Shown here piece after piece: positions 23,611-41,755 of a DNA stretch of 43,394 bases (its first letter is position 1; every line of letters starts with the position of its first letter). The notes beneath the pieces are model-generated. The model had not been told where the DNA came from. It saw only the letters and a list, made by a program, of their open reading frames with translations, and searched no databases. This DNA comes from a virus. The stretch spans positions 1 to 43,394 of the IMG/VR virus record IMGVR_UViG_3300035703_002461. One strand, written 5' to 3'. The position numbers were made by a program, and so were the translations under genes.

Positions 23611-25068
23611 CTAGTAGCTCACGCCGAGGTAATCGAACGTGGTGTCGGTGTCGAAGCGGTGCAGGGCCTGGGTGAGCGCGTCCACCTGGTCGTCGTGCGC
23701 CCCACGGGGGAAGGCCGAGGCCTCCTCCAGCAGGTCGCCCACCCAGGGGGCCAGCTCGGGGTCGGGCAGCCACACGTTGCCCGCCTCGATGGCGGGGGAA
23801 ACGGCGGCCACGCGGGCCTCCTTGGACCCGGCCGGGTTCACGGGGATCAGGCCGGGGATCTCCCGGCCCAGGGCCGAGATCACCGCCGGGCCGTTCGCCT
23901 TGTCCTCCACCAGGATCGCCCCGGCCTGGGGCCACTTGGCCCGCATCGCCCGGATCGCCTGGACGGTGGAGGAGAAGTCGAGCCGGTCGCGCACCTGGTC
24001 GAGCAGGTAGCGGTCGGCGCCCCGGCGCCCCCACACCTGGCCCACCACGTAGTCGGACGACGCGGCGGCCTTGAAGGAGAGATCCCAGGACTGGAGGATC
24101 GTGTCGAACTGCGCCAGGCTGGGGGCCTCGCGGTAGAAGCGCCACCAGGCCCGCCGGATCAGGTTGCCCTCCACGCGGGAGGGCCGCTGCTGGTACAGGG
24201 CCGCCCAGGCCCGCGAGCCGACGGCGCCCCGGATGCGCTCCAGGCGCTCGACGCTGAACCGTTCGGGGTGAAGTGCCTCGCCCACCGCCCGGTGGGGCTC
24301 GGGCTCCTCGGCGATGGCCGGGTATCGGATCACGCGCCAGCGATCCCCGCCTGCCGCCTCGGCGGCCAGCAGGCGCCCCGCCAGGTCGTCCTCGTGCCAC
24401 CGGGTCATCACCAGCAGCACCCCGCCGCCGGGCATCAGGCGCGTATACGCCGTGTGGGTGTACCACTCCCACACCGCCTCCCGGTACGTGGCCGAGGCCG
24501 CCTGGGCCGCGTCCTTCACCGGGTCGTCAATCACCAGCACGTGGGCGCCCGAGCCCGTGAGGGCCGAGCCGATGCCCACGGCCTTGAAGCTGCCGCCCAG
24601 CGTGGTTTCCCACTCCTGGACGGCGGTGCGGGCCGCGTCGAGCACCAGGTCGGGGAAGCGCCGGGTGGCGGTGCGGCTGCGGGCGATGGATCGCGCCCGG
24701 CGGGAGAACTTGGTGGAGAGGTCTTGCCCGTAGCTGGCGGCCACCACGTGGTGGGCGGGGTGGTGCCCCAGGTGCCACACGGGCCACCGCTCAGAGACGA
24801 GTAAGCTCTTGCCGTGCCGGGGTGGCACGAAGATCATCAATCGCGGGCTCTCCCCACGCGCCACGGCCCCCGAGAACTCCTCCAGGGCCTGCCCGAGTTC
24901 GTGGTGGAACCACCCGGCCAGGTAGCCCGGCGCCGTCTCGCGGGCGAAGTCGATGAGGCCCACCCGGTTGGCCGCCTCACTGGTATCGCCGGGCAGGCGC
25001 TCCAGGCGGGTCCTCGCCAGGCGTGTCAGCAGCGAGGGCGGCGAGAACCTTGGCAAGCTCGGCTTCAC
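23611..25068 (-). CDS. terL: Terminase large subunit
   Basis: The 485-aa protein carries the packaging ATPase and nuclease. Walker A is PPRHGKS (residues 82-88), Walker B HVLVIDDPVKD, and the RNase H-like nuclease shows SWDLSFKAAASSDYVVG, GAILVEDKANGPAVI and the late acidic motif GAHDDQVDAL. It resembles the psiM2-type terminases. The start used overlaps TerS by 92 bases; a GTG about 35 codons further in would reduce the overlap but lacks a better ribosome site. The packaging mode (cos or pac) cannot be told from sequence. Confidence 0.92.
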   Translation of the reverse strand: MKPSLPRFSPPSLLTRLARTRLERLPGDTSEAANRVGLIDFARETAPGYLAGWFHHELGQALEEFSGAVARGESPRLMIFVPPRHGKSLLVSERWPVWHLGHHPAHHVVAASYGQDLSTKFSRRARSIARSRTATRRFPDLVLDAARTAVQEWETTLGGSFKAVGIGSALTGSGAHVLVIDDPVKDAAQAASATYREAVWEWYTHTAYTRLMPGGGVLLVMTRWHEDDLAGRLLAAEAAGGDRWRVIRYPAIAEEPEPHRAVGEALHPERFSVERLERIRGAVGSRAWAALYQQRPSRVEGNLIRRAWWRFYREAPSLAQFDTILQSWDLSFKAAASSDYVVGQVWGRRGADRYLLDQVRDRLDFSSTVQAIRAMRAKWPQAGAILVEDKANGPAVISALGREIPGLIPVNPAGSKEARVAAVSPAIEAGNVWLPDPELAPWVGDLLEEASAFPRGAHDDQVDALTQALHRFDTDTTFDYLGVSY

Positions 25069-25534
25069 TCAGCGCCTCCTGGAGTCGATCCAGCACCCCC
25101 TCCAGCTCCCGCTCCACCTCGGCCCGGATGCGCCGGGCCACGCCGTAGCGGTCGGGGAACTTACGCTCCAGCCGCCAGGCCGCCGCCTGCCACTGTGGCG
25201 GGGCCAGCTGGCGCTCGCGCTGGGTCGTGCCGTCGGGGCGCGTGATGGTCACATCCCGCAGCACCTCGCCCCCGGCCGCCGCCTTGCCGATGGTCAGCAG
25301 GTCGCGAAGCTCGGCCTCGGCCGCCGCCTTTTCTACTGCGTCCGAAAACGCCGCCAGCTCGGGCGTCTTGCCCCGTGCCCCCTCGCGGAGCCAGGCGTAC
25401 AGGGTGTCTTTCGATATGCCCGCCGCAGCGGCAGCGGTTTCAAGGTAGGCCCCGGCCCGGATGAACCCGAGCAGCTTGTCGGCCATCTGCGGGCTGAACT
25501 TGGACGGGCGCCCTGGCGGCCGTTGTCGTGCCAT
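24977..25534 (-). CDS. terS: Terminase small subunit
   Basis: The 185-aa protein begins MARQRPPGRPSKFSPQMADK and holds an N-terminal helix-turn-helix (TAAAAAGISKDTLYAWLREG), the DNA recognition part of small terminases. A central oligomerisation region and the segment RKFPDRYGVARRIRAEVERE follow, typical of TerS proteins paired with this TerL type. It recognises phage DNA and regulates TerL. It sits directly downstream of the ParB-like and dpdA genes, so DNA modification and packaging genes are in one transcript. Confidence 0.85.
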   Translation of the reverse strand: MARQRPPGRPSKFSPQMADKLLGFIRAGAYLETAAAAAGISKDTLYAWLREGARGKTPELAAFSDAVEKAAAEAELRDLLTIGKAAAGGEVLRDVTITRPDGTTQRERQLAPPQWQAAAWRLERKFPDRYGVARRIRAEVERELEGVLDRLQEALSEAELAKVLAALAADTPGEDPPGAPARRYQ

Positions 25535-25551: not shown

Positions 25552-26280
25552 TCACGCGCCCCCGCGTCCGGGCATCGCCAGGTATTCGGCGGCCAGGATC
25601 TCGACCACCTGGCCGAGCGCGATGGACTCCTCCTTGTGGAGCTTGCCCTCGGCCGCGTCGGTGATGAGGGCGCGGGCCTGCACCAGCAGGTCGAACGCCC
25701 CCTCGGGCATCCGTACATCAAACTTCCGCCACCGCTCGGCCTGGGGCTCGTCGGCGGGCTCGCCGGGTTCGTCGGCCCCGGCGTTGAACTGGTCCCAATC
25801 GAACTCGCCCACCTTCACCAGCTCCTCCAGCTCGGCCTCGGAGAAGGGAAGGCCCTTGCGGAGCGCGTCGAGGTCGCCGTCCTGGGCGAGGTCGGCCAGC
25901 AGCTCGCCGAGGGCGAGCGGGTCGGCCTTGCCCCGCGTCTCGTTCAGGATCACCGTCAGCTTCTTGGCCCAGGCGTCGGGCACGTCCAGCACGATGGCGG
26001 GCACCTCGGCGGCCTTTACCAGCGCCTTGAGGTCTTCGCTCACGCCGGGCGGCACCCCGTCCTCGATGAGCGAGGAGAGGACGCGGAAGCGGTGCTCCCC
26101 GTCGATGATCTGGTAGCCGTCGCCCTCGGGGGCGGGGCGCACGGTGATGGGGTCGATGAAGCCGAAGGCCAGGATGCTCTCCTTCTCGGCCTCGAACACC
26201 CGTTCGCTCATCCGGTTGGGGTTCCACGGGTTCGGCTCGATGGCCGCCACCTTCACCCGCTTGATCGTCAGTCGGTCCAA
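25552..26280 (-). CDS. ParB/sulfiredoxin-fold protein next to dpdA (possible DpdB analogue)
   Basis: The chosen start is TTG 26280, with GGAGGGGAATCAC upstream and a 13-base overlap with the dpdA end. The N-terminal domain shows the ParB boxes: IEPNPWNPNRMSE, then GFIDPITVRPAPEGDGYQII and DGEHRFRVLSSLI. The rest is helical (ADPLALGELLADLAQDGDLD) with a C-terminal helix pair. ParB/Srx-fold proteins hydrolyse nucleotides or nick DNA and often accompany phage DNA modification genes. In the bacterial dpd system DpdA needs a second protein, DpdB, which I recall as an ATPase related to this fold; the tight coupling to dpdA makes an equivalent role attractive, but this is inference. Confidence 0.8.
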   Translation of the reverse strand: MDRLTIKRVKVAAIEPNPWNPNRMSERVFEAEKESILAFGFIDPITVRPAPEGDGYQIIDGEHRFRVLSSLIEDGVPPGVSEDLKALVKAAEVPAIVLDVPDAWAKKLTVILNETRGKADPLALGELLADLAQDGDLDALRKGLPFSEAELEELVKVGEFDWDQFNAGADEPGEPADEPQAERWRKFDVRMPEGAFDLLVQARALITDAAEGKLHKEESIALGQVVEILAAEYLAMPGRGGA

Positions 26281-27221
26281 GTGATTCCCCTCCGCGCCCA
26301 CAGGGCCGTCGCGCCGCGCTCCATCGCCTGGTACTTCTGGACCTCGTGGCGCAGCGAGTAGATGTTGACCTCTCGGGCCTGGGCGTACTTGGGCAGGCTG
26401 CGCTGCGAGCCGAGGGCCGAGGTCTTGCCGAACCGCAGGCCGGAGATCCAGCTGCTGACGTCCGACGAGTAGCACGGATAGCGTTCGATGGCCCACTTCT
26501 GGGCGATGCCCAGGAGGTGTACCTTGGGCATCACGCCCCGCCGCCTGTACGCCTGTGTCACGACGGCGAAGCAGCGGTCCAGCCAGGCCCCGAGGCGTTC
26601 CCGGTCCTTGGCGTAGGGGACCAGGCCCCCGAGGGCGAAATAGTCGTACTCCAGGGCCCGCTCCACGTGCTTGAGGTCCGCCCCGTAGGTCACGATCGGG
26701 ATGACGGGGATGCCCGCCCGCTCGATCACGGCCTGGTTCTTCCAGGAGGCGTCCTGGTCCCCGATCACGTCGAGGTTGAAGAACCGCAGGAAGGCCAGCT
26801 TCTCGGACCACCGGCCCCGGAAGCCGTGGGCCCACTCGGCGTATTCCTCGGGCCGGATGAGCTTGCCCTGGGTGAACGCGGTGAACGCCCCCGAGTCGAT
26901 CAGCACGCGGGCGCGACGATCAGTCGCCGGGCCTGCCTTGTCGGCCAGGTGCCCCCAGCCCGCCGCGATGGCGCGCTCGGTGTTCTTGTACTCGTACGAC
27001 AGCAGGCTGCTCCGGTGGCCCGCCTCAGCGGACGCCACCCAGCACTCGGGAACGCCGTTGGAGTTCGCCAGGTGCAGATACATCATTTTCTCCCACGCAG
27101 ACGCGAATAGCCGCTCCGCTCCGCGGTGGGCGTAGCTGAGCAGGTGGCTGCGGTAGCCGGCCTCTACGAGGGCCGCGTACTGTCCACGGTCCCCGGAGTT
27201 ATCGACCAGGTGGAGCCACAT
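26268..27221 (-). CDS. dpdA: DpdA-type DNA guanine transglycosylase
   Basis: This 317-aa protein resembles phage DpdA enzymes, distant TGT relatives that exchange guanine in DNA for a 7-deazaguanine. Visible features are VLIDSGAFTAF (D109, matching the general-base Asp of TGT 'DSGG'), IPVIPIVTYGADLKHVERAL, DYFALGGLVPYAKD, KVHLLGIAQ, and SSDVSSW with D254 as candidate nucleophile. The TGT zinc cluster (CxCxxC..H) is absent, as in short phage DpdAs. The first 92 residues are a tandem repeat of a 46-residue unit. The start ATG overlaps the stop of the XapX gene (TGATG). Upstream queD, queE, folE and queC supply preQ0. No amidotransferase or QueF-like gene is nearby, so dPreQ0 is the simplest product. 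Confidence 0.85.
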   Translation of the reverse strand: MWLHLVDNSGDRGQYAALVEAGYRSHLLSYAHRGAERLFASAWEKMMYLHLANSNGVPECWVASAEAGHRSSLLSYEYKNTERAIAAGWGHLADKAGPATDRRARVLIDSGAFTAFTQGKLIRPEEYAEWAHGFRGRWSEKLAFLRFFNLDVIGDQDASWKNQAVIERAGIPVIPIVTYGADLKHVERALEYDYFALGGLVPYAKDRERLGAWLDRCFAVVTQAYRRRGVMPKVHLLGIAQKWAIERYPCYSSDVSSWISGLRFGKTSALGSQRSLPKYAQAREVNIYSLRHEVQKYQAMERGATALWARRGITWTD

Positions 27222-27373
27222 CAGGCCCACCCGGCCACGGTGTAGCCCAGCCACACGCCGACCACGCCCGCCACCCCGGCGAGGGTGGGGGGAGCGGGGA
27301 TCGGGAGCCCGGCCAGGCCGAACACCGCCCCCACGACCGCCCCCACCAGCAGCGACCCCGCCACGGCCATCAT
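27221..27373 (-). CDS. XapX-like small membrane protein (DUF1427)
   Basis: The 50-aa product has two hydrophobic segments (AGSLLVGAVVGAVFGLAG and LAGVAGVVGVWLGYTVAG) joined by PIPAPPT. This matches the XapX/DUF1427 pattern of two short helices around 'SPAPP'. The function of the family is not established. It is coupled at both ends: its start overlaps the queC stop (ATGA) and its stop overlaps the dpdA start (TGATG), so it is made together with the preQ0 and transglycosylase proteins. A role in the modification pathway is only suggested by this position. Confidence 0.7.
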   Translation of the reverse strand: MMAVAGSLLVGAVVGAVFGLAGLPIPAPPTLAGVAGVVGVWLGYTVAGWA

Positions 27374-28068
27374 CGGATCACCGTGTCTTCGGCCGCCGCC
27401 CGGTAGGCGATCCAGCCCCGTTCCCGCACCCGGCAGGCCGGGCACACGCCGCAGCCGTAGCCCCAGGGGTGGCGCTGGGAGCGGTCGCCCTCGTAGCACG
27501 TGTGGGACCGCTCGATCACCACGGGCAGCACCCCCAGCTCCTCGGCCAGGCCGAACGTGGCGGCCTTGCTGAGCGACAGGAGCGGCGCCACGATCTCCAC
27601 CTCGGGGAAGGCCATCCCCAGGCGCACGGCGGCCTGGAGCGCGTCGAGCGTGGTGCCCCGACAGTCGGGATACCCCGAATAATCCGCCTCGCACACCCCG
27701 GTCCAGACCTGGGTGGCGCCGACCTTCATCGCGTAGGCGGCGGCGAGGGTGAGGAACACCAGGTTGCGGCCGGGCACGAAGGAGGCGGGGAGGTCGCCGA
27801 GGCTGGCGTGCGCGGCGCCTATGTCGCCCGCCCCGCCGTCCACCAGGGCGCTGTTCCCCAGCTGGCCCAGGGCCTCCACGTCGCACACCTGGAGGGGGAT
27901 GCCCAGGTCTTGCACCACCCACTCGGCGGCCTCGCGCTCGATGGCGTGGCGCTGGCCGTAGCGGAAGTGGATCGCGCCCACCAGGGTGGACTCGCGGGCG
28001 GCGGCGTAGGCCGTCGTGATCGAGTCCTGGCCGCCGGAAAGGACGACGATGGAGCGGGGGGCGGTCAT
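27370..28068 (-). CDS. queC: QueC, 7-cyano-7-deazaguanine (preQ0) synthase
   Basis: The 232-aa protein begins with the PP-loop VVLSGGQDSITT (residues 8-19) of ATP-pyrophosphatase enzymes and has the QueC features HFRYGQRHAIERE, FVPGRNLVFL, and a C-terminal zinc site SHTCYEG ... GCGVCPACRVRERG with four cysteines. QueC converts 7-carboxy-7-deazaguanine to preQ0 with ATP and ammonia. It overlaps folE by four bases and the XapX gene by four. All catalytic elements appear intact. Confidence 0.95.
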   Translation of the reverse strand: MTAPRSIVVLSGGQDSITTAYAAARESTLVGAIHFRYGQRHAIEREAAEWVVQDLGIPLQVCDVEALGQLGNSALVDGGAGDIGAAHASLGDLPASFVPGRNLVFLTLAAAYAMKVGATQVWTGVCEADYSGYPDCRGTTLDALQAAVRLGMAFPEVEIVAPLLSLSKAATFGLAEELGVLPVVIERSHTCYEGDRSQRHPWGYGCGVCPACRVRERGWIAYRAAAEDTVIR

Positions 28069-28688
28069 CGGGAGCCTCCGAGGATCAGGGACAGGGCTTC
28101 AGCGCGGGCCTCGGGGTTGGTGGCGAACACGCCCCGGACCTCGCTGGTGGTCATCACGGACTGTTGCTTGGCGACGCCGCGCATCCGCATACACTGGTGG
28201 GCGGCCTCGAGCACCACGAACACGCCCTCGGCCCGCAGCTCGGCCGCGATGGCGTCGGCCACCTGGGCGGTCATTCGCTCCTGCACCTGGAGGCGCTTCG
28301 CGAAGGCCTCGACCAGCCGGGCCAGCTTGCTGATCCCCACCACGCGCCCGCCCGCACCCGGCAGGTAGGCCACGTGGGCCACCCCGGAGAAGGGGAGCAT
28401 GTGGTGCTCGCACAGGCTGTGGAACTCGATGCCGCGCAGGAGCACGATGCCCCCGTACCGCACCCCGGCGTCGTCGTCGTCCAGGTCGAAGGTGCGCGAG
28501 AGGATCGTGGCCGGGTCGGCCGCGTACCCCGCCGTCAGCTCGCACAGGGCCTTGATCACGCGCTTGGGCGTGTCCTCCAGCCCCTCGCGGGTGGGGTCCT
28601 CGCCGATGGCGGCGAGCAGGCCGCGCACGTGGGCGAGCACGGCGTCTCGCTCCCAGATCGGCCAGCGGGCGTCAGATCGAGGGTCCAT
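28065..28688 (-). CDS. folE: GTP cyclohydrolase I
   Basis: This 207-aa protein carries the FolE core: FHSLCEHHMLPFSGVAHVAY (Cys and His zinc ligands), GISKLARLVEAFAKRLQVQE, AAHQCMRMRGV (third zinc Cys) and a C-terminal TSEVRGVF. It opens GTP to dihydroneopterin triphosphate, the first step towards preQ0. The start chosen is ATG 28688, which gives a 17-base overlap with queE; a longer frame begins 17 codons earlier inside queE. Host FolE could do this step, so the phage copy likely raises flux for DNA modification. Confidence 0.95.
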   Translation of the reverse strand: MDPRSDARWPIWERDAVLAHVRGLLAAIGEDPTREGLEDTPKRVIKALCELTAGYAADPATILSRTFDLDDDDAGVRYGGIVLLRGIEFHSLCEHHMLPFSGVAHVAYLPGAGGRVVGISKLARLVEAFAKRLQVQERMTAQVADAIAAELRAEGVFVVLEAAHQCMRMRGVAKQQSVMTTSEVRGVFATNPEARAEALSLILGGSR

Positions 28689-29367
28689 TGTCGGGGTCGC
28701 CTCCCAGGGGGATGGCGCGTTTCTCGGCGTGCGGGTCACGCTGATCGACGCGGTAGAGCTTGTGGAGCTGGTAGCCGGCCCGGAGGCCGACCCCGGCGGT
28801 GACGGTTTGCGAGATGAAGTCGAGCAGGGCCGGGTCGTGGCGCTTGGACCACTCGGGGTGCAGCCACACGGTGGCGCCCGGCTGGCGCCCCTCGATCAGC
28901 TCCAGGGAGCGCACCAGGGACCAGGTGTCTTCCACGATCACCTTGAACTCGTTGGCCAGGCGCACGTTCTCGGGCAGCGGCGGCGTGGCGCGGGGCTTGG
29001 GCGAGAGCGTGATCCAGTCCAGGGGCGCCTCGGTGCGGATCGGGAGGTGCCCGGCGGTTTCCAGGTGGACGTTGCGCCCCAGCCGGTGGATCTCGTCCAC
29101 CAGGGGGCCGAGGTTGTACAGCGTGGGCTCGCCCCCGGTCACGATCACCGGGGCCAGGTAGGGTGCCCGGATCAGCGCCCCGACCTCGGGGGCCGTGAGC
29201 GCCCGCAGGCCGTCGGGCCGCCAGGCCGGGTGCCAGGTGCCCGCCGCGTCACACCAGGTGCAGCGCTGGTCGCAGCCCTGGAGCCGGATGAAGTAGCTGG
29301 TACGCCCGCTGTGGACGCCCTCGCCCTGGAAGGCCAGGAAGTGCTCGTTGACGACGTATCGGGTCAT
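28672..29367 (-). CDS. queE: QueE, 7-carboxy-7-deazaguanine synthase
   Basis: The 231-aa radical SAM enzyme shows NEHFLAFQGEGVHSGRTSYF, then GCDQRCTWCD (CxxxCxxC cluster motif), APVIVTGGEPTLY and a C-terminal WLHPEW. QueE rearranges 6-carboxytetrahydropterin to 7-carboxy-7-deazaguanine using SAM and a 4Fe-4S cluster. The ATG overlaps the queD stop (ATGA at 29367-29364). Length is at the compact end for the family. Confidence 0.93.
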   Translation of the reverse strand: MTRYVVNEHFLAFQGEGVHSGRTSYFIRLQGCDQRCTWCDAAGTWHPAWRPDGLRALTAPEVGALIRAPYLAPVIVTGGEPTLYNLGPLVDEIHRLGRNVHLETAGHLPIRTEAPLDWITLSPKPRATPPLPENVRLANEFKVIVEDTWSLVRSLELIEGRQPGATVWLHPEWSKRHDPALLDFISQTVTAGVGLRAGYQLHKLYRVDQRDPHAEKRAIPLGGDPDNGPSI

Positions 29368-29822
29368 CCTGCACCGCCCGGCACATAGACGGCGCTGTTG
29401 GCGCCGTGCTCGCGCACCTCCACCGACACCAGCCGCACGCGGTCCTCGCACACGCCCTCCAGCCAGGTGGTCACGAACCCGGCCACCCGCTCGGCGAACG
29501 CCTCGCAGCCCACGTGGGGCACCACCACCAGGTCCACCAGGCCCGCCGCGTGGAGCGCCCGGAACGTCTCCAGCTCGGGGTCGTCGTGGGCGACCAGCGT
29601 CTTGTGGTCGAAGGTGGCCGACAGCCAGGCCTTCACGGCCTTGAGCCCCCCGAAGTCCACCACCCAGCGCCGGTCATCCAGGCTGTCAGCCTCGAACACC
29701 AGCGTGACCGCCAGGGCGTAACCGTGGAGGTGGCGGCAATGGGAGTGGGTGGCCCGCCACTGGCGGAAGCAGGCGCTCAGGCCGAGGTCGTGGCCGAAGG
29801 TCTTGGTGCTGCGGTACGGCAT
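29364..29822 (-). CDS. queD: QueD, 6-carboxytetrahydropterin synthase
   Basis: The 152-aa T-fold protein has ATHSHCRHLHGYALAVTLVF, with the catalytic Cys four residues before the HG dipeptide, and VDFGGLKAVKAWLSATFDHK, the family's second conserved block. The usual HGH zinc motif reads HGY here, a variant I have seen in phage and proteobacterial QueD-like proteins. The last third carries VSVEVREHGANSAVYV, corresponding to the 'E..' substrate-binding strand. It is the first gene of the cassette, with a GAGGAACCCCG ribosome site. No preQ1 riboswitch was found upstream. Confidence 0.9.
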   Translation of the reverse strand: MPYRSTKTFGHDLGLSACFRQWRATHSHCRHLHGYALAVTLVFEADSLDDRRWVVDFGGLKAVKAWLSATFDHKTLVAHDDPELETFRALHAAGLVDLVVVPHVGCEAFAERVAGFVTTWLEGVCEDRVRLVSVEVREHGANSAVYVPGGAG

Positions 29823-29931: not shown

Positions 29932-30516
29932 TCACGCGCCACGCGGGCGCAGGGTCACGGGGTTCACGGGCGCCTGGTTCCCCAGCGCGTCCCACCCCGC
30001 CACCGCCTCGCGGGCGAACACCTCGACCCTCGGCACGTCGCCGAACAGGGCCACGATGTGCTCGCGCACCTCGGCGGGCTTGCGGCTGTGGATGATGCGG
30101 CCGTCCGCGTCCCTTGGGTGCGGGGCGTGAACGACCTGGGACACGTTGCGGGCGGCGGGCGTCATTCGGCCCCGCACGCCCAGCAGCACGATCTCGGTGT
30201 TGGATCGGGTGTAGTGGCCCGGCCCGACGAAGGTGTGGCCTCGGCGGGTGGTCTTCACCCACACGAAGGCGACGGTGCGGTACTTGAACCCCCAGGCGCC
30301 CATCACCGCCAGGGCGTCGGGCAGGTTCGGCCAGGTGGCCCACAGGCACAGCGCGGCGTCCGTGTCGGCCAGCTCCCCGATGGGCAGCGCGGCGATCTCG
30401 GCGGTGGGCATCACCGGGTAGTCCCCGCGCAGCCCGCCGCCCGCGTTCGACTTCTTCCAGGTCGAGCGGGAGTGGTAGGCCCAGGGGGGATCGGCGAGGA
30501 TGATGCGGTAGGTCAC
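29932..30516 (-). CDS. MT-A70 family DNA adenine N6-methyltransferase
   Basis: The 194-aa protein begins VTYRIILADPPWAYHSRSTW, containing the DPPW catalytic motif, followed by FKYRTVAFVWVKTTRRGHTF, SNTEIVLLGVRGRM and VRVEVFAREAVAGWDALGNQ. This order is characteristic of phage MT-A70 methyltransferases, which methylate adenine in short DNA motifs. GTG 30516 is preferred because of the TTGAGG ribosome site; a TTG four codons earlier (30528) overlaps the small upstream frame. Together with the preQ0 cassette directly downstream it gives the phage two independent base modifications. Confidence 0.88.
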   Translation of the reverse strand: MTYRIILADPPWAYHSRSTWKKSNAGGGLRGDYPVMPTAEIAALPIGELADTDAALCLWATWPNLPDALAVMGAWGFKYRTVAFVWVKTTRRGHTFVGPGHYTRSNTEIVLLGVRGRMTPAARNVSQVVHAPHPRDADGRIIHSRKPAEVREHIVALFGDVPRVEVFAREAVAGWDALGNQAPVNPVTLRPRGA

Positions 30517-30524
30517 GGCGTGCC

Positions 30525-30626
30525 TCAATCAGGGGGCGGGTGAACCGAGGCACCCTCGGCCACCCCCCACACCCGTTCCGGTCCGTAGCGGTAGCGAAGC
30601 GCACGGCGGCCCAGAAAGTCGATCAA
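30525..30626 (-). CDS. Possible 33-aa peptide
   Basis: A TTG start overlaps the stop of the upstream gene (TTGA at 30626-30623) with GGAGCCTGA before it, and the frame reads MIDFLGRRALRYRYGPERVW up to a TGA that overlaps the alternative TTG start of the methyltransferase. It fills the only gap in this stretch. Support is the coupling pattern alone; the peptide may be non-functional. Confidence 0.4.
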   Translation of the reverse strand: MIDFLGRRALRYRYGPERVWGVAEGASVHPPPD

Positions 30627-30847: not shown

Positions 30848-31107
30848 TCCCACACCCCCGGCCGCCGCCGGTTGCCCTCCAGGTCGTCGGCGCTCACCCG
30901 CACCCGCCCCAGCCGGTCCTCGCGCAGGATGGCCTCCCGCACGATCTCCCGCTCGGCCGGGTTCAGGTTCTCGCACAGCCCGTAGAACGTGCCCTCGCGA
31001 TCCCACAGCCAGCGCTTCGCCCCGAGGCGGCCCCGCAGCCGACACTCCCGCCGGTAGGCGGCGAGGGCGAGGGGCATCACCTGGGCGATCAAGGCGTCAC
31101 AGGGCAT
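30844..31107 (-). CDS. Hypothetical protein (87 aa)
   Basis: It begins MPCDALIAQVMPLALAAYRR and continues with WLWDREGTFYGLCENLNPAE, then a helical EREIVREAILREDRLGRVRV. The start overlaps the end of the upstream kinase-like gene by 11 bases. No motif is recognised. The dense coupling with genes on both sides supports expression. Confidence 0.55.
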   Translation of the reverse strand: MPCDALIAQVMPLALAAYRRECRLRGRLGAKRWLWDREGTFYGLCENLNPAEREIVREAILREDRLGRVRVSADDLEGNRRRPGVWE

Positions 31108-31819
31108 CGGGCACGGTCTCCGAGTCGAGCACCAGCTCGACCAGTCGTTCAGGTGGGGCGTCGGCCGAGAGCACGAGGTCGAAGTCGATCCCGAGGTGCG
31201 CCCGCTCCGACGGGTGAAGGTGCAGGCCAGACGGACACAGGCCGTCGCGCACGACGAGCCGGTGGGCCGCCTGGTGGGCGTCACCGGCCAGGTGAACCAG
31301 GCGGAAGCCCGCCGCCCGCAGGCGTTGGGCCTCGTTGGGAAAGCGGAGGTCGTCCACCACCACTGGCCCCTCGATGGGAACCAGCCGGGCCAACAGGGCC
31401 TCCACCCAATAGTCGGGAGCGCCCCAGCCCCGCGCGGCGGGTGGGTCGCCGGTGTACAGCGCCCCCTCCATCCGTCGAACCCGGTCCCACCACAGGTCGA
31501 ACCCCTCGGCGTCGAGCCCGCGCCCCAGCACGGCGGTCACCAGCTCCGCGCAGGCCACCGCCTGGCGGCTCTTGCGGATGGCGGGATCGACCGCCAGGGC
31601 CTCGGCCACGTGGCACCACGATGGCGAGCGGGCCGCCGCCCCGAGGGCTTGCAGCGTGCCCCGGTCGGCCGCGTGGTCCAAGGTGCGCCCAAGCGTGACC
31701 GCGAGGATCGCCTTGAGCCCATCGGCGAGGGAGCGCCGCTGGTAGCCGTACCGAACGAGCGCCTTGGCGAGGGTGGTCTTACCCGAGCCGGCGAACCCGG
31801 CGATGGCGAGTGGTCGCAC
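31097..31819 (-). CDS. Deoxynucleoside monophosphate kinase-like P-loop protein
   Basis: The 240-aa protein starts VRPLAIAGFAGSGKTTLAKA with Walker A GFAGSGKT (residues 8-15). Later it has GPVVVDDLRFPNEAQRLRAA, the 'DxRfpnE' pattern seen in T4 gp1-like dNMP kinases and related phage proteins. It would phosphorylate dNMPs to dNDPs for phage DNA synthesis, consistent with nearby ThyX and NrdJ. GTG 31819 is preferred because of the GGAGGTGTGTC ribosome site. The family is clear at the P-loop level, the substrate is inferred. Confidence 0.75.
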   Translation of the reverse strand: MRPLAIAGFAGSGKTTLAKALVRYGYQRRSLADGLKAILAVTLGRTLDHAADRGTLQALGAAARSPSWCHVAEALAVDPAIRKSRQAVACAELVTAVLGRGLDAEGFDLWWDRVRRMEGALYTGDPPAARGWGAPDYWVEALLARLVPIEGPVVVDDLRFPNEAQRLRAAGFRLVHLAGDAHQAAHRLVVRDGLCPSGLHLHPSERAHLGIDFDLVLSADAPPERLVELVLDSETVPDAL

Positions 31820-31838
31820 GACACACCTCCACAGCACA

Positions 31839-31868
31839 AGGGGCCACCAGCTTGCGCCAGCGGCCCCT
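31839..31868 (-). terminator. Hairpin upstream of the kinase-like gene
   Basis: AGGGGCC (31839-31845) pairs with GGCCCCT (31862-31868) with extra inner pairing. On the minus strand it is followed by TGTGCTGTGGAGG, with no T run. It may attenuate transcription arriving from the 31948-32448 gene. Confidence 0.4.
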
Positions 31869-31890
31869 CGTTAGGGCAGGAGAACACCCC

Positions 31891-31908
31891 GTGCTTACAC
31901 CGTAACGC
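31891..31908 (-). promoter_or_regulatory. 18-bp motif shared with 19767-19784
   Basis: GCGTTACGGTGTAAGCAC on the minus strand, 15 of 18 identical to the copy upstream of the head genes. The gap 31820-31947 also holds TTGTGA 18 bases upstream of TACGGT, a weak promoter candidate. If the HTH protein encoded just upstream is a late activator, these two copies are candidate sites for it. Confidence 0.3.
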
Positions 31909-31947
31909 CGGTCACAGGACGCTCACAAGGTCGCCTGCCCGGACAAT

Positions 31948-32448
31948 TCAGCGGACAAGGTGGTACACGGGGGCTCGCGCCAGGACGAAGGAGGCGGGTT
32001 GCGGTTGCAGCTCGGCGATCACGCGCTCCAGTGCCTCGCGCAGCCAGCGGCGCACCGTCCGCTCCGTGACCCCGATCCGCTCGGCCACCACCGCCTGGGT
32101 GACACCCTTGGGCCGGTCGTAAATGAGCCAGTAAAGGGCCAGGTACAGGCAGTTCAGGTGCTCCTCGCGGGTGGTCTGCGGCTGCTCGGTGTGCCAGCCG
32201 TTCAGGATGGCGGCGATGCGCCCGTGGGGCACCTGGAGGCCGAAGGTGTTGCCGTCCATGTGCTCCACGAACGCCGCCTTGAGCTTGGGCGAGCCCAGGC
32301 AATCCACCTGCGTAAAACATCCGCCCGTTTTCTCCGTCTCCACCAGCTGGGTGCCGGTGTATGCGGGCACGAAGTCATAACCCCGAGGGAACCCACCCAT
32401 CAGGTAATCCCGCAGGGTGTCGGTGTCGATCTGGATGTGGTGCTGCAT
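31948..32448 (-). CDS. HTH protein, possible late transcription regulator
   Basis: The 166-aa protein reads MQHHIQIDTDTLRDYLMGGF and ends with a helix-turn-helix (GVTQAVVAERIGVTERTVRR, about residues 115-134) followed by WLREALERVIAELQP. The HTH resembles sigma-70 region 4 or the ArpU/RinA-type late activators of Gram-positive phages. It is encoded between the nucleotide metabolism genes and the genes leading into the late module, the usual place for such a switch. The N-terminal half contains VDCLGSPKLKAAFVEH and is not recognised. Confidence 0.6.
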   Translation of the reverse strand: MQHHIQIDTDTLRDYLMGGFPRGYDFVPAYTGTQLVETEKTGGCFTQVDCLGSPKLKAAFVEHMDGNTFGLQVPHGRIAAILNGWHTEQPQTTREEHLNCLYLALYWLIYDRPKGVTQAVVAERIGVTERTVRRWLREALERVIAELQPQPASFVLARAPVYHLVR

Positions 32449-32538
32449 CTGTAAGGGTCTCCTGCTGTTGGTGGTGATCAGGTCTGATATGTGGGTCGGT
32501 TGCTCGATGGGATTATTCCACGCGTGCTGAGTATTAAC
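32449..32538 (-). promoter_or_regulatory. AT-richer intergenic region, probable promoter
   Basis: This gap between thyX and the HTH gene is much richer in A+T than its surroundings and contains, on the minus strand, TTAATA and TAATCC 16 bases apart as a weak promoter-like pair. A GCAGGAGACC ribosome site precedes the HTH gene. A separate promoter for the HTH gene and what follows is plausible but not proven. Confidence 0.35.
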
Positions 32539-33336
32539 CTAACTCGAACACAATTTATCCAGGATCTCCCGGACGGCCACAGGGGCCTCCTCCGCCCGGC
32601 TCCCCAGCCAGGCCCCCAGGGCCGCCACCTGGCTGCGCGAAAGGCGCACGGCCCCCTGGCGGTGTTCCGCCCACGCCGCCACGCTCACCGGGGCCACACG
32701 CCGGGCGAACGCCAGCACGGCCTCGGCGTACACCCGGATCTCGGCCTGGGCGTGTGGGTGCAGCCGCAGCTCCAGGAAGCGCAGCAGGTTGTGGAGGTCG
32801 ATTTTCCAATACCACTCGGTGTAGGTGTTGAGCGGCAGCACCATCCGGGCCAGCTCGCGGGCGTGGCCGTCCGCGATCAGGGCCTCGTAGCTGGCGAAGG
32901 CGTACTCCGTGGCCTGCTCAATCGCCCCCGCCCCCGTGTCCCGGAAGGCCGGGTGCAGCTCGCCGTCGCCCACCTGGCGGTTGCGGCTCCCCTGGCCCCG
33001 CAGGGCCTCCGGTGTCGGCAGGTACGCCTCGGCGGGCACCACCGAGTAGCGGGCCGACACCTCGTTCACTGAGGCCGTCCGGTGGCGCAGCCACTGGCGG
33101 GCCACGAACAGCGGCGCCTTCACGTGCAGCTTCAGCTCCACCATCTCGAACGGGCTCGTGTGGTCGTGCCGCATCAGGTAGTCGATCAGGCGGGCATCGT
33201 CCCGCACCGTCTTCGTCCCCGCCCCGTAACTCACACGGGCGGCCTGCACCACCGCCGCGTCGCCCCCCATCGCGTCCACCAGGCGCACGAACCCCTGATC
33301 GAGCACGTCGATCCGGTCCTGGGTTGTCTCCTCCAT
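32539..33336 (-). CDS. thyX: ThyX, flavin-dependent thymidylate synthase
   Basis: The 265-aa protein has the ThyX signature RHRTASVNEVSARYS (RHRxxSxNExSxRYS), preceded by HTSPFEMVELKLHVKAPLFV and followed by YTEWYWKIDLHNLLRFLELR with the family's 'DLHNLLrFL.LR' block. It methylates dUMP to dTMP using methylenetetrahydrofolate, FAD and NADPH. It supports phage DNA synthesis along with NrdJ and the kinase-like protein. A hairpin separates it from nrdJ upstream. Confidence 0.95.
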   Translation of the reverse strand: MEETTQDRIDVLDQGFVRLVDAMGGDAAVVQAARVSYGAGTKTVRDDARLIDYLMRHDHTSPFEMVELKLHVKAPLFVARQWLRHRTASVNEVSARYSVVPAEAYLPTPEALRGQGSRNRQVGDGELHPAFRDTGAGAIEQATEYAFASYEALIADGHARELARMVLPLNTYTEWYWKIDLHNLLRFLELRLHPHAQAEIRVYAEAVLAFARRVAPVSVAAWAEHRQGAVRLSRSQVAALGAWLGSRAEEAPVAVREILDKLCSS

Positions 33337-33355
33337 CGGGATCTCCTTTCAAAGC

Positions 33356-33379
33356 GGGCGCCGGGTTGCCCCGGCGCCC
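33356..33379 (-). terminator. Hairpin between nrdJ and thyX
   Basis: A perfect 10-bp stem GGGCGCCGGG / CCCGGCGCCC with a 4-base loop lies after the nrdJ stop. On the minus strand it is followed by GCTTTGAAAGGAG, so termination is probably partial before thyX. Confidence 0.55.
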
Positions 33380-33386
33380 TTGCGCC

Positions 33387-35342
33387 TCACGCCACCGAGC
33401 AGGCCGACCAGCCGCACGACGGGCAGCTCTCGCACCCCTCGGCCGCCACCACCGGCCCGCCGCACGACGGGCACCCGCCCTCCTCCGGGGCGGCCACGGG
33501 CGCCACCGCCAGCACCTCGGCCTCCTTGGGCGCGGTGGTGGAGAGCGGCTGCCAGGCCCGGCACCCGTCGCGGTAGATCGTGATGCCCTTGCACCCCGTC
33601 TCCCACGCCAGGCGGTACGCCTCGGCCACCTCCTCGACGCTCGCCCCGTGGGCGAAGTTGATCGTCTTGGAGGTCGCCGAGTCGTTGAAGGCCTGGAACG
33701 CGGCCTGGATGCCCACGTGCTCGCCGGGGCTCACGTCGTGGGCCACGCGGAACACGGCGGCGGCCTGCACCAGGGCCTCGGGCGCCCCCTCGCCGAGCTC
33801 CCGCACGACCTCGACCAGCGAGCCGTGGCTGGCGTCCAGCGCCCCCTCCAGCGCCTCGCTCCACCCGATCGCCCCGCCCTCGCAGTAAGCGCGGAACACC
33901 GGGTCGGCCTCGATCATGTGCGTCTCGGCCTGCCAGCGGCGGAAGGCCAGGGCGAAGGCGGGCTCACACCCGCCCGAGGTTCCCGCGATGAGCGACAGGG
34001 TGCCGGTGGGGGCGATGGTGGTGGTGGTGCTGTTGCGGAGGCCGTGGGCGCCCGCCATCACCGCCAGCCAGTCGTACCGCACCTCCGGGTGGCGGTGCGG
34101 GTGCGCCTGGCGCTCGCGGCACCAGCGGGAGAAGATCGCGGTGAAGGCGTCCTCGTGCCCGGCCAGGGCGGGGAAGGCGCCCCGCTCGCGGGCCAGGTCC
34201 ACGCTGGCGTACTTGGAGTGGTAGTCGATGAAGCTCATCAGGTGCCCGGCGAGCTGCTGCGACTCGGGGGCGCCGTAGGCCACGCCCAGGCGGTACAGCA
34301 TCCGGGCGAAGCCCATCACGCCGAGGCCGATCTTGCGCGTGGCCCGCGACACCTCGCCGATCTGGGGGATGGGGTAGACGTTCGCGTCGATCACGGCGTC
34401 GAGCATCTGGGTCGCCGTCCACACCACCTCGGCCAGCCGCTCCCAATCGACCGCCGGGGCGCCCTCGCGCTCCACCACGAAGTTCTCCAGGTTGATCGAG
34501 CCCAGGTTGCAGCTCTCGTAGGGCAACAGCGGCTGCTCGCCGCACGGGTTGGTGGCCTCGTAGCCGCCCAGCCAGGGCACCGGGCAGTCCTTGTTCATCC
34601 GGTCGATAAACACCACGCCCGGCTCGCCCGAGCCCCACGCCCGTTCGATCACGCGGCGCCACACGGTGCCGGCGTCCAGGCGCCCCACCACCTGGCCGTC
34701 GTGCGGGTCCACCAGGTCGTACTCAGTGCCCGCCTCCACCGCCGCCATAAAGGCGTCGGTGATGGCCACGGACACGTTAAAGTTCGTGAGCTTAGAGAGG
34801 TCGGCCTTGTGGTCGATGAAGGCGAGAATGTCGGGGTGGTCCACCCGCAGGATGCCCATGTTGGCGCCGCGCCGCATCCCGCCTTGTTTGATCGACTCGG
34901 TGGCGGCGTTGAACACCTCCATAAAGGAGATCGGGCCACTGGAGGCGCCGCCCGTGCCCGCCACCACGGCGTTCGCACGGCGCAGGCGGGAGAAGGAGAA
35001 GCCGGTGCCGCCGCCCGTCTTGTGGATCAGCGCGGCGTGCTTGACGCTCTCGAAGATGCCCTCCAGGTCGTCCTCCACGGGCAGCACGAAGCAGGCCGAG
35101 AGCTGGCCGGTGCGGGCGCCCGCGTTGGCGAGGGTGGGGGAGTTGGGCAGGAAGTCCAGCGCGGCCATCACGCGGTGATACCGCTCGGTGTTGTGGGCGA
35201 TCACCTCGGGCGTGTGGCCGTACCGGGCGCCCGTCTCGGCCAGCAAGCAAGCAACGCGGCGGAACATCGCGTCGGGGGTCTCGCCGGGCAGCAGGTAGCG
35301 CTTCTGGAGCACCGTCAGGGCGTTGGGGGTCAGCGTGGTCAT
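33387..35342 (-). CDS. nrdJ: Class II (B12-dependent) ribonucleotide reductase
   Basis: The 651-aa protein carries the NrdJ features: FLPNSPTLANAG, GQLSACFVLPVEDDLEGIF (first active-site Cys), GGGTGFSFSRLR, TNPCGEQPLLPYESCNLGSI (radical Cys and Glu) and TTTTIAPTGTLSLIAGTSGG. The C terminus ends with a CxxC pair repeat (CPSCGG and CPSCGWSAC) used for reduction by thioredoxin-like partners. No N-terminal ATP-cone is present, so dATP inhibition may be absent. It uses adenosylcobalamin and works with or without oxygen. Its start overlaps the recU-like stop (ATGA). Confidence 0.95.
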   Translation of the reverse strand: MTTLTPNALTVLQKRYLLPGETPDAMFRRVACLLAETGARYGHTPEVIAHNTERYHRVMAALDFLPNSPTLANAGARTGQLSACFVLPVEDDLEGIFESVKHAALIHKTGGGTGFSFSRLRRANAVVAGTGGASSGPISFMEVFNAATESIKQGGMRRGANMGILRVDHPDILAFIDHKADLSKLTNFNVSVAITDAFMAAVEAGTEYDLVDPHDGQVVGRLDAGTVWRRVIERAWGSGEPGVVFIDRMNKDCPVPWLGGYEATNPCGEQPLLPYESCNLGSINLENFVVEREGAPAVDWERLAEVVWTATQMLDAVIDANVYPIPQIGEVSRATRKIGLGVMGFARMLYRLGVAYGAPESQQLAGHLMSFIDYHSKYASVDLARERGAFPALAGHEDAFTAIFSRWCRERQAHPHRHPEVRYDWLAVMAGAHGLRNSTTTTIAPTGTLSLIAGTSGGCEPAFALAFRRWQAETHMIEADPVFRAYCEGGAIGWSEALEGALDASHGSLVEVVRELGEGAPEALVQAAAVFRVAHDVSPGEHVGIQAAFQAFNDSATSKTINFAHGASVEEVAEAYRLAWETGCKGITIYRDGCRAWQPLSTTAPKEAEVLAVAPVAAPEEGGCPSCGGPVVAAEGCESCPSCGWSACSVA

Positions 35343-35896
35343 CGGGATTCCTTTCTACGATGGGGGGAGAGAATGAGGCGGTCGGCTGGGGCGGGCTCGG
35401 CCTCGTCCAGGCGGCGCAGGCCGTCCAGCAGGTCGAGCCGCTTGCCTTTCAGGTGGAACTCAGGGCACCGCTCCAGCAGCACGGGCACGGGAATCGACTT
35501 GTCCACCAGGCGGCGGTCCCACCAGGGGCGCAGCACGCTCCAGGTGAGGGCGAGGTATCGGGGGCGCTCGAGCGCGGCCAGCTCGACCAGGAAGAAGGCG
35601 ATGCCGCCGCGCTCGTGCGCCCCCCGCACGATCTCCACCTGGTGCTCTTTGAGGTTGTCGAACGGCAGACGGGTCTTGAGCTTGGAGCTTTTGGCGTCGA
35701 ACGTGACGGCACGCCCCCACCAGTCGCCCGCGAAGTCCAACCCACCGTGCCCCATCAGGCGGCCCACGGCCTGGCCGCCCGGCAAGACCCGCCCCACGAA
35801 CCGGGGCGAGGTCTGCCGGAGGCACAGGCCCCAGGCGTCGAGGCCCTTGGCGCTGTGTGCCACCAGGGCCTCCAGGCTGGAGCCACGGGCGCTCAC
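35339..35896 (-). CDS. RecU-like Holliday junction resolvase
   Basis: The 185-aa protein (GTG 35896, GTGA overlap with ssb) contains GGLDFAGDWWGRAVTFDAKS followed by LPFDNLKEHQVEIVRGAHER and GIAFFLVEL. This order, an Asp in 'D(F/Y).G' then '(F/A).(A)K' and the 'HQ' helix, is the RecU nuclease core seen in Gram-positive phages. It would resolve branched DNA before packaging. The remaining sequence diverges from cellular RecU. Confidence 0.75.
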   Translation of the reverse strand: MSARGSSLEALVAHSAKGLDAWGLCLRQTSPRFVGRVLPGGQAVGRLMGHGGLDFAGDWWGRAVTFDAKSSKLKTRLPFDNLKEHQVEIVRGAHERGGIAFFLVELAALERPRYLALTWSVLRPWWDRRLVDKSIPVPVLLERCPEFHLKGKRLDLLDGLRRLDEAEPAPADRLILSPHRRKESR

Positions 35897-36264
35897 CAGG
35901 GCATGTCCTCGTCGGACGCGCCCCCGGCCTGGGCGCCCTTGCCCGACAGGTTGGTGGCGTCGAAGGCCAGGACGACGGTCTTGCGCCGGGGCTCGCCGCT
36001 GGCCTTGTCGGTCCAGCTCTCCTCCCGGATCTCGCCCTCGACCAGGACGAGATCGCCCTTGTGGCACCACTCGGCCACCTTCTCGGCGCGCTTGCCCACC
36101 ACCTTGACCGAGTGCCAGGTGGCGACCTCGGCCTTGGCCTTGCCGTCCCAGTGGTTGGTGGCGATCCGCAGCTCGGTGATCATCGACTCGGGCGACAGCA
36201 CCTTGCACTCGGGGTCCTTGCCCAGGCGGCCGACCAGGGTCACGCGGTTGTACGTCTTGCTCAT
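35893..36264 (-). CDS. ssb: Single-stranded DNA-binding protein
   Basis: The 123-aa protein begins MSKTYNRVTLVGRLGKDPEC, the standard SSB OB-fold start, with ATWHSVKVVGKRAEKVAEWC and GDLVLVEGEIREESWTDKAS. The C-terminal tip DEDMPW matches the acidic partner-binding tail (DDDIPF type). It coats ssDNA at the phage fork. The ATG overlaps the DnaC-like stop. Confidence 0.93.
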   Translation of the reverse strand: MSKTYNRVTLVGRLGKDPECKVLSPESMITELRIATNHWDGKAKAEVATWHSVKVVGKRAEKVAEWCHKGDLVLVEGEIREESWTDKASGEPRRKTVVLAFDATNLSGKGAQAGGASDEDMPW

Positions 36265-37106
36265 GGGGTGTCCTCCGTGGTGAGCCAGGTCGCCTTCAGC
36301 GCCTGGCGGAGATCGGGGCCGGTGAAGCGAACGGGCAGGCACCGCTCCCGGATGCGGGAGAGGACGCGATGCACCATCAGCTCGGCCTCGTGGGGGGGGA
36401 GCCGGTCGCGGCCTTGCGTCAGGCAGCGGGTGTAGTGGTCGGCCAGCTCGGCCGACGACAGGTTGGTGGTGAGCAACAGGGGCGCCTTCGCCCGGTAGCG
36501 GTGATCGATCAGGTCGAAGATCTCCACCGAGGTGAACTCCGTGGCCCGCTCCAGGCCGAACTCGTCGATCACCAGCACGTCAGCGGCCCGCAGCGCGGCG
36601 AGGTACGCCGGGGCCTTGTCGAAGTCCCGCAGCCGCCGGGGCAGCTCCGGGGCCGAGCACCAGGCGACCGTCCAATCGCCCGCCTCGACCTCGTTCACCA
36701 GCGCAGCCAGCACGGCGGTCTTGCCCGTGCCCACCGGGCCGGTGAACACCAGGCCGGTTCCGTCCACCCGCCGGGCGGCGAAGGTCGCCAGGTAGCGCTC
36801 GGCCACCCGTCGCCCCTCGCGTTGCCCGGCGACGTCCCGGAGATCGGCCAGGCGAACCCCGGCGCCCTCGCGGGCCGGCAGCTGTTCGCCGTGGGTCTGC
36901 GCCCACACCTGGCGGGCCTCCCGCCGGGCCTCGTCGGCCCGCCGTTGGACGAACTCGGCTTCCTGGTGCGGGCAGGGCACCCGCACCTCCACCGTACCCA
37001 TCCCCGGCAGGTCCACCGCCGCCCGGCGCGGGCCACAGACCTCGCACACCGGCAGGGTGGGCACCCCCTCCAGCATCGCCCGGAGGGCCAGCGACAGCGC
37101 GTTCAA
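36261..37106 (-). CDS. DnaC-like helicase loader (AAA+)
   Basis: A TTG start (37106) follows GGAGGTGCCGT and overlaps the preceding stop. The 281-aa product has a cysteine pair CEVC (21-24) and PCPH (45), which could bind zinc, then the ATPase with Walker A GPVGTGKT (123-130) and Walker B VLVIDEFGLE, and APLLLTTNLSSAELADHYTR (sensor 1). This is the layout of DnaC/DnaI-type loaders that place the replicative helicase at the origin. No phage helicase gene is present, so host DnaB is the expected client. Confidence 0.85.
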   Translation of the reverse strand: MNALSLALRAMLEGVPTLPVCEVCGPRRAAVDLPGMGTVEVRVPCPHQEAEFVQRRADEARREARQVWAQTHGEQLPAREGAGVRLADLRDVAGQREGRRVAERYLATFAARRVDGTGLVFTGPVGTGKTAVLAALVNEVEAGDWTVAWCSAPELPRRLRDFDKAPAYLAALRAADVLVIDEFGLERATEFTSVEIFDLIDHRYRAKAPLLLTTNLSSAELADHYTRCLTQGRDRLPPHEAELMVHRVLSRIRERCLPVRFTGPDLRQALKATWLTTEDTP

Positions 37107-37366
37107 AACGGCACCTCCTCGCACCCCTGGGTCGCAGGGATCGGCCGGGGGCGCTTCACCAGGCGGTACTCCACCACGACGCAGGCGCACGGGGCGTCCA
37201 CCACGTCCTCGGTGTAGAACCCCTGGCCGTAGTCACCCACCGAGGTCCAACCGGCCACGGTGACGGCCCGCAGGCCCGAGCCGTCGCACGTCCGGCAGGT
37301 GGGATCGGGGTGCTCGACCGGCTCGCGCACCACCTCCAGGCCCACCGCCTGATCAGGCGCCCACAT
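37103..37366 (-). CDS. Small CxxCxGSG zinc-motif protein (87 aa)
   Basis: ATG 37366 is preferred because of GGAGGTGCCG. The protein contains CRTCDGSG near residue 24 and APCACVV near residue 60, four cysteines likely to bind one zinc. It is translationally coupled to the DnaC-like gene downstream and may be an accessory of the replication complex. The function is unknown. Confidence 0.6.
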   Translation of the reverse strand: MWAPDQAVGLEVVREPVEHPDPTCRTCDGSGLRAVTVAGWTSVGDYGQGFYTEDVVDAPCACVVVEYRLVKRPRPIPATQGCEEVPF

Positions 37367-41344: not shown

Positions 41345-41755
41345 ATGACGTCAGGGGATCTTCGCCGCGTGATGCGGCGGCACCGGGTTGTTGTCCGCTT
41401 GTCTGCTGACCTGCCCACCGCCAGCCTGGTGATGCGGGCGGGGCCGGTGGTGCTGGTGAGCTTGCACCGGCGTTTGCCGGCCACGCTGGCCCGCGAGGAG
41501 CTGGCGTACAGCCTGGGGCGCCTGGCGCTGGAGGGGCCACCTGAGCCGGGCGACTACCTGCTGCCCGAGCGCGTGAAGCGGCGGCTGTCTCGGCGGGCGA
41601 TGGTGTGGGCGCTGGCGCGGTTGATGCCCGAGGAGCTGGTGCGCCAGGCCGAGCGGGAGGAGTGGGAGCCGTGGCAGCTGGCCGAGGCCGCCGGCGTGTC
41701 GGTGGAGGCCGCCGCGCTGCGGATCGAGCTGTGGCGGCAGGGGCGCGGGGGATGA
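41345..41755 (+). CDS. ImmA/IrrE-like protein with degenerate zinc motif
   Basis: The 136-aa protein has the layout of DUF955 (ImmA/IrrE) peptidases: RVVVRLSADLPTASLVMRAG, then RRLPATLAREELAYSLGRLA where active relatives have 'LA HELGH', and a C-terminal MVWALARLMPEELVRQAERE with LAEAAGVSVEAAALRIELWR. The HExxH metal motif reads EELAYSLGR, so the catalytic His residues are missing. Active ImmA cleaves its partner repressor during induction; this copy may instead bind the CI-like protein without cutting it. It sits between the repressor and integrase genes, overlapping the integrase start. Confidence 0.65.
   Translation: MTSGDLRRVMRRHRVVVRLSADLPTASLVMRAGPVVLVSLHRRLPATLAREELAYSLGRLALEGPPEPGDYLLPERVKRRLSRRAMVWALARLMPEELVRQAEREEWEPWQLAEAAGVSVEAAALRIELWRQGRGG

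Follow-up and report, generated by a model that had tools for sequence, protein, structure and literature searches.

A phage preQ0 and DpdA gene cassette with a duplicated DpdA N-terminal module and a recurrent ParB-fold neighbour

In phages that encode DpdA together with the four preQ0 genes and no amidotransferase, dPreQ0 has been found to replace approximately 28% of G in Rosebush and approximately 32% in CAjan, and deletion of dpdA abolished dPreQ0 in the latter (PMC6884629). The DNA of phage Iggy is likewise reported to carry dPreQ0, in a statement of PMC11008142 that cites a 2023 paper. In bacteria, DpdB has been described as a ParB-like ATPase required for insertion (PMC12839542), and a ParB from a cluster B mycobacteriophage had earlier been put forward as a homologue of DpdB (PMC6392294).

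The stretch of DNA analysed here (the window) comprises 43394 bases, has a GC content of 71.7% and is a virus record of IMG/VR. It contains a real and complete preQ0 and DpdA cassette of a kind already known from other phages; distinctive in this case are the N-terminus of DpdA and the recurrent ParB partner. With this record, the phages with predicted dPreQ0 gain a divergent member that has 72% GC and is probably temperate.

Gene content and surroundings of the cassette

The cassette spans 25552-29822 on the minus strand, from queD through parB, with terS and terL next to it. The order on this strand is queD, queE, folE, queC, xapX, dpdA, parB, terS, terL and portal, with neighbouring genes overlapping or abutting:

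29364-29822, minus strand: queD-like gene (6-carboxytetrahydropterin synthase), HGY-type (PF01242; phrog_2389, E 5.5e-43)
28672-29367, minus strand: queE (7-carboxy-7-deazaguanine synthase), CX3CX2C intact (phrog_2076, 3e-28)
28065-28688, minus strand: folE (GTP cyclohydrolase I) (PF01227, 5e-68; TIGR00063 above cut-off)
27370-28068, minus strand: queC (preQ0 synthase) (PF06508, 2e-64; TIGR00364 above cut-off)
27221-27373, minus strand: XapX small membrane protein, 50 aa (TIGR03510, 7e-14, above cut-off)
26268-27221, minus strand: dpdA, DNA-guanine transglycosylase (phrog_887, 8e-26; alignments; structure match)
26951-27221, minus strand: DpdA N-terminal module of ~45 aa, tandem duplication in two copies (second self-match, 43%, 1.5e-6)
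25552-26280, minus strand: ParB/Srx-fold protein with DGEHR motif (ParB_N PF02195, 5e-11)
24977-25534, minus strand: terS, directly downstream of the cassette (phrog_4102, 4e-29)
23611-25068, minus strand: terL (phrog_38, 3e-123; PF17289; PF03237)

All seven genes named in the earlier note (QueD, QueE, FolE, QueC, XapX, DpdA and the ParB-fold protein) were confirmed by family matches, the strengths of which lie far beyond chance; every cassette gene has an open frame and coding-like composition. Inspection also bore out its statement that the catalytic motifs of FolE (SLCEHH and HQC), QueE (CX3CX2C) and QueC (SGGQDS of the PP-loop and the zinc Cys cluster) are intact; the NCBIfam QueE models matched QueE with scores below their cut-offs. 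Composition by codon position favoured 28688 over 28739 as the more likely start of folE. The dpdA frame starts at 27221 in a TGATG overlap with xapX, and a second ATG pair (27086/27083) has a Shine-Dalgarno-like GGGAG ahead of it; parB starts with TTG at 26280 and overlaps the dpdA stop.

The arrangement of cassette and terminase recurs and was already on record for cluster B: in Arbiter (species Rosebush) the cassette immediately precedes the terminase. Same-strand terL was present in 9 of 41 loci with dpdA and ParB versus 0 of 39 without ParB, many of these loci being truncated. The earlier suggestion of modification just before packaging was not upheld, since terminase adjacency alone does not show timing and the placement is known from the Rosebush group. 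In a Staphylococcus intermedius genome (L120, 5607-11239), dpdA, queC, queD, queE and folE lie directly before terL, and this locus is likely a prophage with the full preQ0 pathway.

The XapX protein, a putative accessory membrane protein, scored 51.1 bits against TIGR03510 (cut-off 27.8). An XapX gene occurred in 8 of the 80 DpdA loci (best 80 of 529), mostly immediately before queC, in 0 of 80 TerL-selected loci, and hardly at all in isolated phages; the number of independent XapX-DpdA cases is smaller than eight, because several of these loci look closely related. Exclusive occurrence in DpdA phages was rejected on account of a partial match in Geobacillus virus E3, which lies away from annotated preQ0 genes.

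Near the end of the record a large serine integrase is encoded (41605-43341, plus strand; PF00239, PF07508), which implies a probably temperate phage. The earlier designation as a prophage has this integrase as its sole basis; the window itself is an IMG/VR virus record and not a placed prophage. Eleven ParB-dpdA records, most of them fragments, gave no match to this integrase family, and the record ends show no exact terminal repeat beyond 13-16 bases. Immediately upstream of the cassette lies an MT-A70 type DNA methyltransferase gene (29932-30528); the DpdA and ParB loci that were inspected gave no match to it. Genes of nucleotide metabolism and replication follow at 31097-37190 (dNMP kinase-like, thymidylate synthase, ribonucleotide reductase large subunit, Holliday junction resolvase, DnaC-like loader).

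The ParB-fold protein and its linkage to dpdA

The model of the ParB protein (pLDDT 90) was matched best by 6sdk (ParB with CDP), besides a serine kinase and sulfiredoxin, and the DGEHR motif is conserved. A scan of IMG/VR with this protein yielded 59 relatives. By profile, dpdA was present at the locus in 19 of them, two more having a divergent DpdA of the DSGAF type, and in most of the dpdA-bearing loci the dpdA frame overlaps parB. In 23 of the 59, a QueD/PTPS-like gene is located directly 5', dpdA is undetected and a terminase lies downstream in most (phage loci L027-L031, L033-L041, L043, L045-L051 and L054); in nine of these, searched as whole records (L037, L038, L041, L045, L046, L049, L050, L051 and L054), neither QueE nor DpdA was detected. 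On the ParB family tree the dpdA/terL labels required 3 changes versus approximately 13 when the labels were shuffled.

The DpdA sequence alone retrieved no matches in the IMG/VR scan; the DpdA alignment as query gave 529, of which the best 80 were used for locus counts. Among these best 80 of 529, a ParB gene was found in 42 loci and adjoined dpdA in 35 of the 42. A loose control of TerL-selected bacterial loci, searched less sensitively with the single window ParB sequence and drawn from a different source than the DpdA loci, gave a ParB match in 1 of 80. Because 35 of the 42 ParB genes adjoin dpdA, the protein is probably no bystander but a working part of the system and a functional partner of DpdA. 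This partnership is not universal, since in many phages (CAjan, Iggy) dpdA lacks an adjoining ParB gene.

Bacterial DpdB, as inspected in an enterobacterial genome (PADLOC DpdB, 4e-162), is encoded directly after dpdA and has DGQQR; the ParB gene of the window likewise lies directly after dpdA and its product contains a DG-x-x-R motif. By this analogy a role equivalent to that of bacterial DpdB is plausible. Membership in the DpdB family itself was not supported: no DpdB match was obtained in PADLOC at E 1, and the hhalign profile comparison with the bacterial protein returned a probability of 3.6%.

Rather unlikely, if still to be taken seriously, is a ParB protein with no part in the modification and a function in partition of DNA, in regulation or in packaging. 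Its top structure matches are indeed ParB CTPases and 23 of the 59 relatives stand near a terminase with dpdA undetected; however, those same 23 have the QueD/PTPS-like gene directly 5', the overlap with dpdA recurs, and the ParB of Mufasa8 (47%) adjoins dpdA as well. The reading as a DpdA partner is therefore preferred. A bolder version, which we put forward as speculation and consider unlikely, would have the ParB/Srx protein act as a phage-specific, nucleotide-driven DpdA partner tying 7-deazaguanine insertion to terminase and packaging, with the QueD-neighboured relatives representing an undescribed pathway. If true, the phage ParB-DpdA pair would differ from the situation in 9g and CAjan, where DpdA stands alone, and the ParB relatives beside QueD-like genes, with DpdA undetected, would mark an undescribed modification pathway. 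The recurring dpdA-parB pair raises the question whether phage DpdAs of this type depend on a nucleotide-hydrolysing partner, like bacterial DpdA.

DpdA and the predicted product

The DpdA protein is divergent, as judged by its sequence: Pfam and NCBIfam gave no match, phrog_887 was recovered, and alignment revealed 26-30% identity to nine other phage DpdAs; tblastn against phage records matched 220, with 33% identity at best and all below 60%. Residues invariant between the protein and the nine phage DpdAs include D109-S-G-A-F113, D151, G198-G199, H235 and D254, and the same residues are invariant across 32 sequences. The protein has IVT where most phage DpdAs have the CFH motif, and its C-terminus is shorter than in the Queuovirinae DpdAs; both features are also found in close relatives.

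The best match of the AlphaFold model (pLDDT 82) in the viral structure library was the predicted DpdA of Mufasa8 (E 6e-14), and Foldseek against the PDB retrieved the DpdA crystal structure 7ui4 (7e-4). The PDB comparison discriminated weakly, with tryptophan synthase barrels outranking 7ui4, perhaps through a disturbing effect of the duplicated module on the model, in which residues 48-79 have low confidence; the viral library was clear. The earlier note had made its assignment depend on a structure search with the 26268-27221 protein, which stays in the TGT/DpdA superfamily because its matches are Mufasa8 DpdA and 7ui4; the conserved Asp/His and the TIM-barrel fold were found in the alignments and the model. 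At the N-terminus a module is repeated in tandem (residues 1-45 and 46-91, 43% identity between the copies), the first copy being modelled with good and the second with poor confidence. Most DpdAs have a single module; by profile, ten relatives (among L168-L180) have two to three copies, and L174 possibly contains a partial additional one. On this sequence comparison, the duplication is a feature common to close relatives.

From the genes, intact motifs, DpdA fold and ParB linkage we infer a chemistry and biological role that we hold to be very probable. FolE, QueD, QueE and QueC would convert GTP to preQ0, which the TIM-barrel transglycosylase DpdA would exchange for guanines of the phage DNA, giving dPreQ0; the ParB/Srx-fold protein would most likely supply a nucleotide-dependent step, as DpdB does for bacterial DpdA, and XapX would be accessory. 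No enzyme found in the window is predicted to process dPreQ0 further, and the modified DNA would, as suggested by related phages, resist host restriction enzymes.

The full preQ0 pathway with DpdA, stated in the earlier note, was borne out by the family matches and the DpdA structure match, and its prediction of dPreQ0 as product is supported. The absence of DpdC, QueF-like and amidotransferase genes was borne out likewise: searches of the window at E 1 revealed no QueF and no DpdC (PF03883), and QueC lacks a Gat extension, its match to phrog_1550 being confined to 147-346 of 418. ArcS had no PHROG or Pfam match among the ORFs scanned. As in phage group 2 of Hutinet 2019, the four preQ0 genes and DpdA are present, and QueF, QueF-L and Gat-QueC are not. 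Given the missing QueF and DpdC, the QueC without Gat and the dPreQ0 produced by similar gene sets, dPreQ0 in virion DNA is the best-supported prediction. A final base tailored to dADG, dG+ or dPreQ1 by an unrecognised phage or host enzyme appears improbable; several ORFs of the window have no family match and such bases occur in related phages (PMC6884629), but the searches for tailoring genes were negative and gene sets of equal composition in Rosebush and CAjan yielded dPreQ0 (PMC6884629).

The QueD is 65% identical to that of Pseudanabaena phage Pan1. The HGY noted earlier in place of HGH is present, but it is no anomaly: in the motif comparison HGY also occurs in phages Iggy, R7M, M39 and MMDA13, and HGH in CAjan, Bhz54, Mufasa8 and Arbiter. 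Since Iggy shares HGY and is reported to contain dPreQ0, the motif is a lineage trait of phage QueDs and not a defect; inactivation of QueD by HGY was rejected accordingly. A decaying, inactive cassette is highly improbable, as the DpdA duplication and the HGY motif, odd at first sight, are both found in relatives too, and all frames are open and coding-like in composition. An effect on host tRNA queuosine in place of DNA modification, as proposed for phages having preQ0 genes without DpdA (PMC6884629), is hardly credible, since one run of genes encodes both DpdA and the pathway.

Comparison with described systems

The Rosebush group (Arbiter, JN618996; order parB-dpdA-queC-queD-queE-folE-terminase) has the same gene content as the cassette of the window but a different gene order, and Arbiter has no XapX; its DpdA is approximately 30% identical and has a single N-terminal module, and its gp1 is too divergent for detection by the ParB of the window. 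Arthrobacter phage Mufasa8 resembles the window in the dpdA-parB overlap, the full preQ0 pathway, a ParB with 47% over 67% of the query, and the DpdA that is the best structure match; unlike the window, it has another gene order, a second folE-like gene and a single DpdA N-terminal module, and no XapX was found in it. The Queuovirinae (CAjan, Iggy, R7M) share FolE, QueD, QueE, QueC and DpdA with the window, and Iggy and R7M also the HGY of QueD, whereas the QueC of R7M has Gat-QueC size and the cassettes adjoin DNA polymerase genes instead of the terminase, with no ParB gene beside dpdA. The Dpd system of bacteria comprises DpdA-DpdB-DpdC together with restriction genes. It differs from the window in its DpdC and restriction genes and, in PADLOC, in a DpdB that the ParB does not match and a DpdA model matched marginally (E 0.045); common to both are DpdA and, from the gene directly following dpdA, a protein with DG-x-x-R.
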